DNA of 64,000 nucleotides, from contig NETF01000072.1 in NCBI GenBank assembly GCA_002172675.1, positions 1-64,000 of the forward strand. The letters are read 5' to 3'. The stretch is from an unicellular cyanobacterium SU3 (GTDB taxonomy: Bacteria > Cyanobacteriota > Cyanobacteriia > Cyanobacteriales > Microcystaceae). Positions 10,942-57,485 of this stretch are shown piece after piece. Positions within the stretch are counted from its first letter, which is position 1, and each line of letters starts with the position of its first letter. The notes beneath the pieces are model-generated. The model saw only the letters and a program-made list of their open reading frames with translations. It searched no databases and was not told the DNA's origin. The translations under genes and the position numbers were made by a program.

Positions 10942-11952
10942 TCAATTTATCAAATTTTTTCCTATATAAATATCTTCGGGTAAAATTTCTTGCATGATCG
11001 TATTATCAAAATTAGAAATTTTTGCTAATCGATTCGCTTGTTTTGCAATGATTTTTTCAAAAATATTCCTAACTAATCGACCATTTCCAAAACTTTTATT
11101 ACGATTATTATATAATTCTTGAAATTGTGATAATAATTGTTCTTCTGCTTGTTGAGTTAAATGATAATGATGTTTATTAGAAATACTTTGAAAAATTAAT
11201 AATAATTCTTTTGGTGTATAATCTTCAAAGTTAAAATAACGAGTAAAACGAGATTAGAGACCAGGATTTGATTCTATAAAGCGGTTCATTTCTTCTCCAT
11301 ATCCGGCAACAATAACCACCAATCTATCTCGATGATCTTCCATTCTTTTTAGTAATGTATCAATGGCTTCTTGACCAAAATCATTACCAGAATCCATAGG
11401 TTTTAGGGTATAAGCTTCATCAATAAATAATACCCCATCTAAAGCAGATTCTACTATGTCATTGACTTGTTTGGCTGTATATCCGATATATCCTGCAACC
11501 ATTCCGGATCTATCTGTTTCAATTAAATGGCCTTTTTTTAGTATTCCTAATTCTTTATAAATTTTACCCATTAATCTAGCTACGGTTGTTTTTCCTGTTC
11601 CTGGAGAACCACAAAAAACAGAATGTAAAGTAATAGGAATGCCCGATAATCCTTGTTGTTTTCTTAGGTTTTGAATTTTGATAAAATTTACATATTCTCT
11701 GACTTCATCTTTTAAGCTATTTAGTCCAATTAATTCGTTTAAGTCTTTTAAAATAGTTTCTATTTCGTTATTATTATCTGGATTATTATTTATTGTATTA
11801 TTTGAGTTAGGACTATTATTGATAGAATTTTGAATAACTTCTTTTTTTAATCTTTCTAACTCGTTATCTATTGAGTCAGGATGTTTATAATAATTAGATA
11901 ACTGTTTTCTTTCTTCTTCTACGATAGCACTGTAATCTTTATCTAAATCCAT
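10942..11952 (-). pseudogene. AAA+ ATPase (CbxX/SpoVK-like) interrupted by one TAA codon
   Basis: The frame encodes a 336-residue AAA+ protein: Walker [16 protein letters not shown], Walker [12 protein letters not shown] and the phrase [12 protein letters not shown] single in-frame TAA at 11256-11254 falls where the intact paralog at 14164-15348 has Lys (AAA) in the sequence GLKSRF. Beyond it the same frame stays open for 103 codons and matches the paralog's lid domain (EDYTPKELL, KSFGNGRLVRN, EILPEDI) to the natural stop at 10944-10942. I chose the ATG at 11952 because GAGG lies just upstream. The lesion removes sensor 2 and the small domain, so the truncated product is probably inactive. 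It is a young pseudogene or a sequencing error. Confidence 0.8.
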
Positions 11953-12051
11953 ATTAAATACCTCATCTAGAAAATAAATAAGTAATAGGTTCATGTCAAG
12001 ATAAGCATTGATAGCAGTACAAAAATCTACTGATATGAAAACGGCTATCAA

Positions 12052-14135: not shown

Positions 14136-14165
14136 GGTGGGCAATGCCCACCCTACAATGTTTTT
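14136..14165 (+). terminator. terminator-like hairpin after frp
   Basis: GGTGGGC and GCCCACC form a 7-bp stem around AAT, followed by CTACAATGTTTTT. The same GGTGGGCAATGCCCACC core occurs at 21938-21954, so it is a dispersed repeat serving as a 3' end between convergent genes. Confidence 0.5.
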
Positions 14166-15348
14166 AACTATTAACCATTAAAGCAATATCTTCAGGTAAT
14201 ATTTGTTGCATCGTATAAGTCGTGACATCAGGAATAGTAACTAAACGATTCGCTTGTTTTTCAATGGTCTTTTCAAACATATTTCTAACTAATCTACCAT
14301 TACCAAAACTTTTATCACGATGATCATATAATTCTTTAAATCGGGTTAATAATACCTCTTTAGCTGCTTCGCTTAAACTGTAACAATGTTGATTGCAAAA
14401 ATTTTCAAAAATAGCTAATAATTCTTGTGGTGTATAATCTTCAAAATAAAAATAACGGCTAAAACGAGATTTTAAACCAGGATTAGAATTAACAAAGCGG
14501 GTCATTTCATCTCCATAACCTGCCACAATAACCACTAATCTATCTCGATAATCTTCCATTCTTTTTAATAACATATCAATGGCTTCTTGACCGAAATCAT
14601 TGCCAGGATCAACAGGTTTTAAAGTATAAGCTTCATCAATAAACAAAACCCCATCTAAAGCAGAATGAACTAATTCATCAACTCTTTGTGCGGTTTGTCC
14701 TACATATCCAGCCACCATTCCTGATCTATCTGTTTCAATTAAATGACCTTTTTTAAGAATACCTAATTGCTGATAAATTTGTCCCATTAATCTGGCTACG
14801 GTTGTTTTTCCTGTTCCGGGAGAACCACAAAAAACGGAGTGTAAAGTAATAGGAATAGGTTGTAACCCTTGCTTTTCTCTTAGCTTTTGAATTTTGAGAA
14901 AATTGATATATTGACGAACTTCATCCTTTAAATGATTGAGTCCAATAAGTTTATCTAATTCTTTTAATTGATCTTCGACGGTAGCATGAGAAGAAGGAGA
15001 ATAAGAAGGGGATGATGATTTATTTTGTAACTCTTGTTTTCTAACTTTTTGCCGATCTGATTGAATTTGCTGTTTACGTCTTTCTTCTCTATTAAATGTT
15101 TCTTGTTTAATTCTTTCTTGTTCTGCTTTGATTTCTTGTCTGCGTTTAATTTCTGCTCGTAACTTAGCCTTTTCTCGTTCTAATTCCCGTTGTTTTTTTC
15201 GCAGTAATTGATATTCTTCTTCTTGCTGAACTAAACGGCGATCGCGTTCCATTTCTTGTTGTCGTTGAGACTTTTTTTGTTGTTCTTGTTGTTTCAGTTT
15301 TTCTAAGTCTTCTTTAATGCGATCGCTATAATTGGGAAAATCTGACAT
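14164..15348 (-). CDS. AAA+ ATPase, CbxX/CfqX-SpoVK family, with coiled-coil N-terminus
   Basis: Residues 1-110 are a highly charged coiled coil rich in Gln, Glu, Arg and Lys. Residues from about 125 form a single AAA+ module with Walker [16 protein letters not shown], Walker [12 protein letters not shown], the sensor phrase [11 protein letters not shown] and a lid with GNGRLVRNMFE. Relatives include the Rubisco activase CbbX and sporulation protein SpoVK, both ring-forming remodelling ATPases, but the substrate here is unknown. It is convergent with frp (stop codons about 40 bases apart). A disrupted paralog lies on the same strand beyond ocp. It is intact and uses ATG at 15348. Confidence 0.88.
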   Translation of the reverse strand: MSDFPNYSDRIKEDLEKLKQQEQQKKSQRQQEMERDRRLVQQEEEYQLLRKKQRELEREKAKLRAEIKRRQEIKAEQERIKQETFNREERRKQQIQSDRQKVRKQELQNKSSSPSYSPSSHATVEDQLKELDKLIGLNHLKDEVRQYINFLKIQKLREKQGLQPIPITLHSVFCGSPGTGKTTVARLMGQIYQQLGILKKGHLIETDRSGMVAGYVGQTAQRVDELVHSALDGVLFIDEAYTLKPVDPGNDFGQEAIDMLLKRMEDYRDRLVVIVAGYGDEMTRFVNSNPGLKSRFSRYFYFEDYTPQELLAIFENFCNQHCYSLSEAAKEVLLTRFKELYDHRDKSFGNGRLVRNMFEKTIEKQANRLVTIPDVTTYTMQQILPEDIALMVNS

Positions 15349-25627: not shown

Positions 25628-26035
25628 TCAATAAAATATTTTGATAAGATAGTCATCTAATAGATTCAGATTGTTTATATTCCATATTAAAGATTTATTT
25701 CCTACTTGTTGTAGTAGAGGATTAATTTCGATATCTAAGGATTTGATTCCTTGTTTTTGACATTGAATGGAGGTTGTTCCTCTTCCACTAAAGGGATCGA
25801 GAACATAATCTTTTTGGCTAATTTGTAGTTCTTGTATCAAAAATTTTACTAAATCTGGAGAATAACTAGGAGTTAGACGATACCATCTATGTATTGGTTC
25901 AGTTTGACCAGATTTAAAAGTAATATCACCAATATCAATCTCTTCGTAATTAAAACCAGACTCTTGAATATTTTTTTTAAATTGCTTTTTTTCTGCTTCA
26001 ATATTCTCGGAAAACAATGATAGTTGTTTAAACAT
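25628..26035 (-). pseudogene. N-terminal fragment of a DNA methyltransferase
   Basis: The 135 residues contain methyltransferase motif I as DPFSGRGTTS, followed by a short segment ending LDIEINPLL. This is the S-adenosylmethionine-binding part of a class of DNA N4/N6 methylases. The catalytic DPPY-type motif and target-recognition region are missing, because the frame stops at 25630, so it cannot be an active enzyme. No restriction gene is near. It is best read as a relict of a restriction-modification or orphan methylase gene. Confidence 0.65.
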
Positions 26036-54765: not shown

Positions 54766-55359
54766 ATGGCTTTAAAATTCTTTCAAAAACCCGAACCCGA
54801 TAATAGCGATCGCTTTCCTCCAGGTCAATATTTAGCTAAAGGGTTTCCCGTTTTGACCTACGGTGACACCCCACAAATAAGTACAGATAATTGGCAATTT
54901 AAAGTTTGGGGTTTAGTAACACCAAAAACCTTTTCTTGGTCAGATTTTATGAGTTTACCACATCATGAATTTACCAAAGATTTTCACTGTGTTACTCGAT
55001 GGTCAAAATTAGATGTGAAATGGACAGGAATTAAAATTACAGACTTTATCAACTTATTAGATATTGACGCCAAAGCAACCCATGTCATGCAACACTGTTA
55101 TGGAGGTTATACCACTAATCTTCCTTTGAAAGATTTTGTTTTAGACGATAACTTTTTCGCCTTTAAACTATTAGGAGAACCCTTACCCCCTGATCATGGT
55201 GGCCCCATGCGTACGGTTATTCCTCATCTCTACGCTTGGAAAAGTGCAAAATGGATTAATGGGTTAGAATTTTTGCCAAAAGATCAATTAGGTTTCTGGG
55301 AAAAAAACGGTTATCATCGACGGGGTGATCCCTGGAAAGAAGAACGATATGGGGGATAA
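54766..55359 (+). CDS. molybdopterin-dependent oxidoreductase (sulfite oxidase/YedY-like)
   Basis: The 197-residue protein is one Mo-cofactor domain of the sulfite-oxidase superfamily. Cys75 in DFHCVTRWS is the expected molybdenum ligand, and phrases VMQHCYGGYTTNLPL and GGPMRTVIPHLYAWKSAKW form the pterin pocket. It has no signal peptide or heme domain, so it looks like a cytoplasmic stand-alone version. The electron partner and substrate are unknown. Confidence 0.88.
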   Translation: MALKFFQKPEPDNSDRFPPGQYLAKGFPVLTYGDTPQISTDNWQFKVWGLVTPKTFSWSDFMSLPHHEFTKDFHCVTRWSKLDVKWTGIKITDFINLLDIDAKATHVMQHCYGGYTTNLPLKDFVLDDNFFAFKLLGEPLPPDHGGPMRTVIPHLYAWKSAKWINGLEFLPKDQLGFWEKNGYHRRGDPWKEERYGG

Positions 55360-55406: not shown

Positions 55407-57485
55407 ATAATTAATCAAAATTCTTTGCCTTACTCTGTTAGTATTGTTCTGTTTACTAGATATCCCGATCCAGGAAAGGTAAAAACCCGTTTAGCTTGGG
55501 ATATTGGCGATCGCACAGCAGCAGAAATTCATCGTTATCTCATGAGTAAAATGTTGAGGATATTACTTCGTGAGATGGATGGGGTTAATATTATTGTAAA
55601 TTACACAGGAGTCGATACTGTCAGCAAAATGATCGACAGTTTTGATCCTGATTTACTATTAGATATCAAGCAAAATATTAAGTCTGATGTCCTTTCTTTT
55701 ATTCAACAACCATCTTCCTCTTTTGGGGAACGAATGAATGCGATCGCTAAACAGTTAGAAAAAGTAATAATAATCGGATCTGATATCCCAGGCATTACTG
55801 CTAATATTTTAAATGAAGCTATCGAATGTATAAACCAAGATAAAGCAGCGATCGCTTTAACTAAAGATGAGGGTTACTATCTCATTGCTTTACCTTATTA
55901 TCGTGACGTTTTTACTCCCATTAATTATGGTTTAGAAAATGTTTATCAACAGACTTATGCTTTGATGCAAAAAAACTATCCTTCTGCATCTATTCTTAAC
56001 CATACTTTAGTCGATATTGATGAAGTTAAGGATCTTCAATCTCTCAGATTAACACAGTTAATAGAACAAAATCAAATTGAATTTTCAGTTATTATTCCTA
56101 CTTTAAACGAAGTTAATTCTATTTATAATACTTTAGTTAATATAGTTAAGCAGGCCAAAACAGTAAATAATATAGAAATTTTAGTCATTGATGGAGGAAG
56201 TGAAGATAATACGTTACAACGGGTTGAAGAGTTTAAAAAAGACTATCCCCATATTTTAATACAGTCATTAACTATATCATCTTTAGGTCGTGCTTTTCAG
56301 ATGAATACAGGGTTAAGACATTCATCAGGGAAGTATCTGATTTTTTGTCATGCAGATACCTTATTACCATCAGAATGGGACAAAAAAATCGTATCAGTAT
56401 TAAACAATGAAAATGTGAAATTAGCTTATTTTGAATTACAATTTAACTCTGATCATTTAGGATTAAAATGGGTTGCTTGGACAGCTAATAATATCAGGCG
56501 ATCGCCTTATGGGGATCAAGTTTTTTGTATCAGACGAAATTATTTTAAAGCAGTAGGAGGGTTTGATTATCTTTCTTTGTTAGAAGATGTTACTTTATTT
56601 GACAATAAAATTCGTTATCAACATTGTCAGAAAATTCCTGAAACTGTCACCACAAATGCACGTAAATATAGTAATCAAAACAATGAATATAGTTACTTAT
56701 CTATTTTTAAAAATGTTAGTAAAAATTTAGCTATCATGGTAGGGACAAAAGCTTTAAAGTTACCCGCTTGTCAATTAAGAAAAATTCATTATGCTTCATC
56801 CCCTAACTCTGAATTATTAGAAGTTCCTTTTCAAGATAAAATCTATACATTCAAGTACCATTTTCCTAACAAATTAGGTCATAAACTTTCAATCTGGAGA
56901 AAAGTATATTATCAACAATCAATGAACGAATTAATTCCTAAAATTTTAAAATATTGTCAAGGTAATGATATTTTTATTAATACTAAAGCCAATGTAGGTA
57001 TTGTTAGCTGTTTACTGAGTATGAAATTAGCTAAATATCGCATCAAAACTGATATTATTGCCTTTGAACCTGTTCCTTATCTTTATCACATTTTTAAAGA
57101 AAATTACGATCTTTATATTAATGAAACAAGAAATAAAATTTATCTAGAAAATTTAGCTTTAGAAGATAAAAAGAAAAAAAATAATCTTAACGAAATCAAA
57201 CAAATAGCTTTAGATGATTATCAGTTTCCTATTAAGAAAAAAATTAGTATTATTAAAATAGACTTAGACGGAAAGGAATACAATGTACTCAAAGGAATGA
57301 TAAATATAGTTAAAAAACATCAGCCTATTTTAGTCTTAACCTCATCAATCAGTTTATTTGATCATAATCAAAGTGAGGCTAAAAATGATATTAACCCTAG
57401 TTTGAACTTACTTAATAAGTTAAACTATCAAATACATAAATGTAGTTTGATGAATTATATTGCTTATCCTAAGCACAAAATATAA
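55407..57485 (+). CDS. three-module protein: DUF2064 nucleotidyltransferase-like + GT2 glycosyltransferase + FkbM-like methyltransferase
   Basis: The first 220 residues match the TIGR04282/DUF2064 family (LFTRYPDPGKVKTRLA; EKVIIIGSDIPGIT). Residues about 223-450 are a TIGR04283 family 2 glycosyltransferase (FSVIIPTLNEVNSIY; IDGGSEDNTLQ; FCHADTLLP). The last 200 residues look like an FkbM-type methyltransferase (IAFEPVPYLYHIFKENY; IIKIDLDGKEYNVLKG). The three together suggest one sugar- or lipid-modifying pathway. AGGAG at 55391 sits before ATA at 55407, where an ATG could once have been; TTG at 55425 is another possible start. About 693 residues from ATA or 686 from TTG. Confidence 0.8.
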   Translation: MINQNSLPYSVSIVLFTRYPDPGKVKTRLAWDIGDRTAAEIHRYLMSKMLRILLREMDGVNIIVNYTGVDTVSKMIDSFDPDLLLDIKQNIKSDVLSFIQQPSSSFGERMNAIAKQLEKVIIIGSDIPGITANILNEAIECINQDKAAIALTKDEGYYLIALPYYRDVFTPINYGLENVYQQTYALMQKNYPSASILNHTLVDIDEVKDLQSLRLTQLIEQNQIEFSVIIPTLNEVNSIYNTLVNIVKQAKTVNNIEILVIDGGSEDNTLQRVEEFKKDYPHILIQSLTISSLGRAFQMNTGLRHSSGKYLIFCHADTLLPSEWDKKIVSVLNNENVKLAYFELQFNSDHLGLKWVAWTANNIRRSPYGDQVFCIRRNYFKAVGGFDYLSLLEDVTLFDNKIRYQHCQKIPETVTTNARKYSNQNNEYSYLSIFKNVSKNLAIMVGTKALKLPACQLRKIHYASSPNSELLEVPFQDKIYTFKYHFPNKLGHKLSIWRKVYYQQSMNELIPKILKYCQGNDIFINTKANVGIVSCLLSMKLAKYRIKTDIIAFEPVPYLYHIFKENYDLYINETRNKIYLENLALEDKKKKNNLNEIKQIALDDYQFPIKKKISIIKIDLDGKEYNVLKGMINIVKKHQPILVLTSSISLFDHNQSEAKNDINPSLNLLNKLNYQIHKCSLMNYIAYPKHKI

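Follow-up and report, generated by a model that had tools for sequence, protein, structure and literature searches.

Cyanobacteria make arsenosugars, and in the synthesis of oxo-arsenosugars a radical SAM enzyme adenosylates the arsenic, according to the accessible text of PMC12159101, in whose reference list the name ArsS stands. Arsenosugars with a 2-O-methyl group are known in the halophilic algae Dunaliella and Picocystis (accessible part of PMC7345539), and the terms arsenosugar biosynthesis and glycosyltransferase both occur in PMC13077682. Among the titles and abstract beginnings that we surveyed, no study of the glycosyltransferases acting after ArsS was found, and in the collection of papers searched none mentions both DUF2064 and glycosyltransferase. 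The steps after ArsS rest in our study on the names of curated models and on gene neighbourhoods, and their chemistry as given here is presumed. The initial annotation described DUF2064 and the TIGR04283 glycosyltransferase as frequently adjacent or fused in cyanobacteria, and the two-module fusion is indeed common there: at least 49 matches of a whole-protein profile within the class cover sequence of both the DUF2064 and the GT2 part, their frames measuring 431-517 aa.

The gene studied here joins a third, FkbM-like module to these two. It lies in the window, by which we mean the whole 64,000-nucleotide stretch of DNA that was analysed, and its features, all on the plus strand, are the following:

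55407..55409, plus strand, ATA codon at the place of the ATG start of the congeners (alignment with 7 congener copies)
55425..57485 including the stop, plus strand, three-module protein of 686 aa, read from TTG (domain models, congener copies)
55443..56036, plus strand, DUF2064 / TIGR04282-like module (domain models, retained motifs)
56085..56681, plus strand, GT2 / TIGR04283-like glycosyltransferase module (domain models, retained core)
56760..57482, plus strand, C-terminal module, a linker and an FkbM-like Rossmann fold (Pfam match 56988-57344, predicted structure)
56979..56999, plus strand, motif I (SAM loop), NTKANVG where stand-alone FkbM proteins have D-x-G-A-N-x-G
57255..57278, plus strand, K-I-D-L-D-G-K-E motif, corresponding to K-x-D-x-E-G-x-E of FkbM, with the Asp retained

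A single stop-free frame of 686 codons begins on the plus strand with the TTG at 55425 and extends up to the stop codon 57483-57485, and no ATG, GTG or TTG is present in this frame 5' of that TTG. In the 7 congener copies the ATG sits 18 bases 5' of a shared Leu codon, and the window has ATA there; the shared Leu codon is TTG in the window only and TTA, CTA or CTT in the other copies (55407-55427). The start that had been placed at 55407 is thus homologous to the ATG start of the 7 congeners, but ATA is no standard start codon: either the ATA is used, or the TTG is, or the sequence carries a base error. The TTG at 55425 is also a possible moved start. The stop flagged within the matches of two congeners (G003 and G004) is, by its coordinates, the terminal stop of the gene.

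All three modules proposed in the initial annotation are found in this one frame, in the stated order and above their Pfam cut-offs, when the whole protein is searched: DUF2064 (PF09837; E 1.2e-15, 57.9 bits against a cut-off of 25.8, best stretch aa 85-169), GT2 (PF00535; E 2.1e-24, 86.8 bits against 23.3, aa 221-356) and FkbM (PF05050; E 1.8e-9, 38.4 bits against 22.7, aa 522-640). The DUF2064 module presumably has a nucleotidyltransferase-like fold. The curated models give a more graded result. TIGR01444 (FkbM) is reached by the window protein, with 43.6 bits against a cut-off of 37.7. TIGR04282 (118.8-121.6 bits, aa 7-204, curated cut-off 134) and TIGR04283 (166.9-170.2 bits, aa 221-419, curated cut-off 182) are not, and both matches span most or all of the model length. 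The same holds in the congeners: none of the 9 Crocosphaera genomes has a protein over the TIGR04282 cut-off, which all 8 fused loci fall below, and their TIGR04283 scores of 161.7-174.8 bits are all below 182.

Three-module homologues were identified in 8 of 9 Crocosphaera genomes and, among the matches listed, in none of 705 others (the searches together cover G000-G713). A third module had been called unusual and a survey of genomes for the three-module architecture had been proposed; among the genomes searched, the matches listed place it in Crocosphaera only. In a whole-protein search of 59 genomes including the window's own, three-module matches occur in that genome and in all but one (G005) of the 8 other Crocosphaera genomes, the congener copies having 61-79% identity over the alignment, and no match listed for the other 50 genomes spans all three modules. 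The presence of the same three modules in one frame in these 7 genomes makes a chance assembly of the trio untenable. The frame is open in 8 species (683-708 aa) without an internal stop or frameshift. The collection names seven of these loci as Crocosphaera bins, C. watsonii WH 8501 and Cyanothece sp. BG0011, and the records of the latter two carry no metagenome-bin label. In the remaining Crocosphaera genome (G005, 85% complete) neither the fused gene nor the orthologue of its upstream neighbour was found.

Two profile searches, which scored 6 (last third) and 2 (whole protein) candidates per genome in genome samples drawn from larger groups, agree with this distribution. The profile of the last third, run on 388 genomes of the order, recovered the 8 fused copies at E <= 2.1e-72, followed by stand-alone proteins from E 1.3e-18. 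With the whole-protein profile, run on 388 genomes of the class, the best match listed outside the genus has E 3.7e-58 and covers model positions 12-422, and among the matches listed outside the genus no frame has room for a third module after the first two. It is important to consider that a homologous full fusion would be visible despite the few candidates per genome, because it would head the list of its genome and the best E-value is given for each matching genome; an independent fusion with an unrelated FkbM protein could escape the last-third profile where that search alone covered a genome. Four FkbM matches in long frames (784, 766, 848 and 530 aa) were considered as candidate fusions and rejected: read by eye from the frame start, they are other proteins, two sharing the same other N-terminus and two with TPR-like repeats.

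The initial annotation also proposed a survey of nearby genes, and one shared neighbour emerged from it, a sulfite-oxidase-like gene that lies directly 5' of the fused gene in 7 of 8 Crocosphaera loci:

54766..55359, plus strand, sulfite-oxidase/MsrP-like gene (weak MsrP match, 59.6 bits, cut-off 207)

No orthologue of it was found in G005, where the fused gene was not found either, or in G001, where the fused gene is present. Elsewhere in the window, two related AAA proteins, CbbX/SpoVK-like by eye, are encoded on the minus strand (11254-12051 and 14164-15348), the former apparently C-terminally shortened relative to the latter, and a 135-aa frame at 25628-26035 resembles by eye an N-terminal piece of a DNA methyltransferase.

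For the comparison with two-module relatives we aligned the fused proteins with 25 two-module proteins (all 25 loci tried yielded a frame; L013 was excluded as it stops inside the match). At the 126 positions that are at least 90% conserved in the two-module proteins, the fused proteins retain 62% on average. KTRL, D120, GYYLI, DGGSxDxT, GRA-QMN, HADT, PYGDQ and ED are retained in all 8 fused proteins. In the DUF2064 part, 3 of 8 copies have the Gly that precedes GYYLI, and none has the Cys that follows D120. All 8 fused proteins differ at many positions that are invariant in the 25 two-module proteins, including some within DUF2064 motifs, and often share the same substitute residue. These substitutions look like a changed substrate pocket around a retained GT2 core and not like decay, as far as sequence comparison can indicate.

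The association of this protein with arsenosugars comes from gene neighbourhoods on the ArsS side and from the model names. ArsS (TIGR04167) is above its cut-off in all 9 Crocosphaera genomes, each time with a 396-aa ArsM-like methyltransferase before it and a protein of 243-272 aa behind it. No glycosyltransferase was seen in these ArsM-like/ArsS clusters; the fused gene and ArsS occur in the same genome in 8 of 8 cases and are not adjacent, adjacency being seen only for the two-module or separate DUF2064 and GT2 genes of relatives. In G011, a member of the same family, the cluster order is ArsM, ArsS and the DUF2064-GT2 gene, followed by a protein like the one after ArsS in Crocosphaera; the 440-aa two-module protein is above both glycosyltransferase cut-offs (267.6 and 210.5 bits) and the ArsM scores 561.9 bits against a cut-off of 400. 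G057 has separate DUF2064 and GT2 genes inside a cluster of the ArsM/ArsS type, in G051 34 bases separate a GT2 gene from ArsS, and in G411, G425 and G438 a two-module gene lies less than 3 kb from it. ArsS is within 3 kb of the two-module gene in 4 of the 46 two-module genomes with ArsS. We discarded the co-occurrence of ArsS as pathway evidence, since its presence in 46 of 53 two-module genomes is no better than the background of 52 of 59 genomes at large; the 53 genomes comprise 49 from the class profile and 4 from the whole-protein search, without some weaker two-module-like matches of the class profile, and one match (G593) holds a stop.

The ArsM-like protein of the window's own genome (L078:7702-8892, 396 aa), the only one scanned with the models, obtains 333.8 bits with the arsinothricin-type model (cut-off 500) and 140.7 bits with the arsenosugar-type model (cut-off 400), so that it passes neither of these cut-offs, nor any other curated one; unlike the ArsM of G011, it fits the arsinothricin-type model far better. 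The 243-272 aa protein after ArsS resembles by eye a TVP38-type membrane protein, and the own-genome copy matches no NCBIfam family. In 8 of 9 Crocosphaera genomes TIGR04282 matches nothing but the fused protein, and in G003, G004, G008 and C. watsonii (G007) it is, among the matches listed, also the only TIGR04283 match above 80 bits; in C. watsonii one gene thus holds the only TIGR04282 match and the only strong TIGR04283 match of those listed. A stand-alone TIGR04283 glycosyltransferase of 244 aa, above the cut-off, is present in 4 of the 9 Crocosphaera genomes (L141, L142, L143 and L144); the surroundings of these four loci differ, and no shared neighbours were seen by eye.

Special attention was given to the third module, which according to structure prediction has a Rossmann methyltransferase fold. 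An AlphaFold2 model of the C-terminal module, built with 34 sequences of which 26 were added stand-alone FkbM proteins, reached a pLDDT of 85.1 and a pTM of 0.85 and shows a class I methyltransferase fold; a model of the full protein from 8 sequences was poor (pLDDT 51.7, pTM 0.35) and was set aside. Foldseek places FkbM 2py6 first (E 2.1e-7, TM 0.52 by query length). In VIA-align, 2py6 stands at rank 23 with Z 14.1, and the best 50 rows (Z 13.6-15.4) are mostly class I methyltransferases. Against the PDB sequences, a profile of the C-terminal module alone found nothing at E 0.1, and the profile with the 26 stand-alone FkbM proteins added found 2py6 first.

The signature residues were compared with 26 stand-alone proteins, which are the best matches of the C-module profile together with copies from the own genome and congeners, not a random sample (L059, L060 and L066, which nearly duplicate L058 and L065, were excluded, and the set was extended by three congener proteins). 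In motif I, the Asp and the first Gly are each kept in 6 of 8 fused copies, the Ala in 7 and the second Gly in 8, all of them being present in 26 of 26 stand-alone proteins, and the Asn in 4 of 8 against 23 of 26. The Glu after strand 2 (FE) is present throughout (8/8 and 26/26), and the Pro that follows it in 2 of 8 against 23 of 26. The Asp of K-x-D remains in only 2 of 8 fused copies, the window's included, against 26 of 26. Three further residues, each present in 25 of 26 stand-alone proteins, are the Gly of E-G (6 of 8 fused copies), the Glu of G-x-E (5 of 8) and the Glu at module position 194 (2 of 8). All five signature residues (D-x-G-A, the Asp of K-x-D and the Glu of G-x-E) occur together in none of the 8 fused copies and in 25 of 26 stand-alone proteins, and the solved 2py6 carries the D-x-G-A, K-M-D and E-G-x-E residues. 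The erosion differs between copies: the window protein retains K-I-D and the last Glu of that motif and has lost the Asp and first Gly of motif I, and the copy of G004 retains motif I and reads K-I-N at K-x-D. The initial annotation had tied its third module to a SAM motif in a Rossmann methyltransferase; the fold is predicted, but motif I of the window protein lacks its acidic residue and first glycine.

Selection was measured as median pairwise dN/dS (Nei-Gojobori, own script), using 8 genomes and 28 pairs for the fused gene. The medians are 0.227 for DUF2064, 0.252 for GT2 and 0.353 for the FkbM module, whose value is above that of GT2 in 23 of 28 pairs and above that of DUF2064 in 27 of 28. 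The baselines are 0.126 for ArsS and 0.085 for the ArsM-like gene (8 of the 9 Crocosphaera genomes each, matching the fused set). Two stand-alone FkbM genes of the genus have 0.057 (386 aa, 4 genomes; 4 of 5 loci were used, that of G006 being another protein) and 0.072 (284 aa, 3 genomes, 3 of 3 loci), about 5-6 times less than the FkbM module. The whole fused gene evolves fast, and its last third fastest. Nevertheless, a neutral model of the last third predicts a mean of 5.4-12.5 stops per copy at 0.1-0.41 substitutions per site, none is observed, and the frame stays open through all length changes; the FkbM-like module is therefore constrained, though weakly.

The best-supported and, from the sequence comparisons, most likely account is an arsenosugar-type glycosyltransferase with a methyltransferase-like tail whose catalysis has been or is being lost. 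The DUF2064 module would activate the phosphate of a small sugar or alcohol, and GT2 would then transfer the sugar to an acceptor. The route is most likely that to arsenosugars, with ArsM and the radical SAM enzyme ArsS as its first enzymes; in the 8 genomes with a TIGR04282-like domain, the fused protein is the sole carrier found. The ancestor of the genus probably acquired the FkbM-like tail. Because signature residues of this tail have been lost differently across species, its most likely role is structural or in binding, unless it is disappearing, rather than that of an efficient sugar O-methyltransferase. That the gene is, in all these respects, a Crocosphaera-specific, fast-evolving DUF2064-GT2 protein of a likely arsenosugar pathway with a degenerate methyltransferase-like tail is a reading on which we are evenly balanced. 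Against a degenerate tail, the core D-x-G-A-x-x-G of motif I is kept in 5 of 8 copies, in which binding of SAM may be possible, FE in all 8, and the dN/dS of the module is well below 1; against the arsenosugar route, the positions altered in all 8 fused proteins could mean another substrate altogether. The initial annotation suggested that one polypeptide transfers a sugar and then methylates it, and this stands as far as a methyltransferase fold is present; methylation itself is doubtful, given the incomplete residue sets of all 8 copies, the eroded motif I of the window and the five- to sixfold dN/dS.

An active bifunctional enzyme, whose FkbM module tolerates the changed residues and O-methylates the transferred sugar, seems rather unlikely to us: the predicted fold with FkbM 2py6 as first Foldseek match, the motif I core and FE, and purifying selection on the module speak for it, but no copy has the full near-invariant set, 6 of 8 have lost the Asp of K-x-D, and the window lacks the Asp and Gly of motif I. 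In the arsenosugar setting its product could be a 2-O-methyl arsenosugar; such compounds exist in halophilic algae, but in the accessible part of PMC7345539 they come from Dunaliella and Picocystis, not from Crocosphaera. Whether the tail methylates bears on these compounds. If Crocosphaera made O-methylated arsenosugars or arsenosugar lipids with one polypeptide, DUF2064 activating, GT2 transferring and FkbM methylating the ribose, which we consider improbable, the protein would be an enzyme candidate for the 2-O-methyl arsenosugars of halophilic algae, in an open-ocean nitrogen fixer. The protein may instead have left the arsenosugar pathway, its divergent DUF2064-GT2 part making another glycoside or glycolipid and the FkbM tail having come with the change. 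This is unlikely but deserves some weight: neither the window copy nor any other of the 8 fused loci reaches the cut-off of either glycosyltransferase model, all 8 keep the GT2 core but have exchanged many residues invariant in two-module proteins, and the gene lies away from ArsS, its neighbour in 7 of 8 loci being a molybdopterin-type oxidoreductase; yet genomes that retain ArsS and an ArsM-like gene have no other TIGR04282 match. Decay of the whole gene, furthest advanced in the window strain with its ATG replaced by ATA and its SAM loop lost, is highly improbable. Besides that start codon and motif I, it could draw on the dN/dS of all three modules, raised relative to ArsS and the ArsM-like gene, but 8 species show neither internal stop nor frameshift, dN/dS is well below 1, the GT2 core motifs are retained in all 8 and a TTG start is available.

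Compared with the two-module cyanobacterial fusion of TIGR04282 and TIGR04283 (arsenosugar biosynthesis glycosyltransferase), the Crocosphaera protein has the same modules in the same order, retains the GT2 core motifs and most DUF2064 core residues, and adds an FkbM-like module of about 240 aa, whereas it falls below both curated cut-offs with many conserved positions substituted. In the ArsM-ArsS arsenosugar cluster, the two-module homologue stands inside the cluster in G011; Crocosphaera retains ArsS beside an ArsM-like gene in all 9 genomes, but its fused gene is elsewhere, next to the molybdopterin-type oxidoreductase in 7 of 8 loci. Finally, of the FkbM-family SAM methyltransferases (PF05050, TIGR01444, 2py6), the Rossmann fold, FE and the K-x-D-x-E-G region are recognisable in the C-terminal module, which passes both cut-offs; in contrast to that family, its motif I, K-x-D and G-x-E are eroded differently by species, and it is placed behind a glycosyltransferase and evolves fast.
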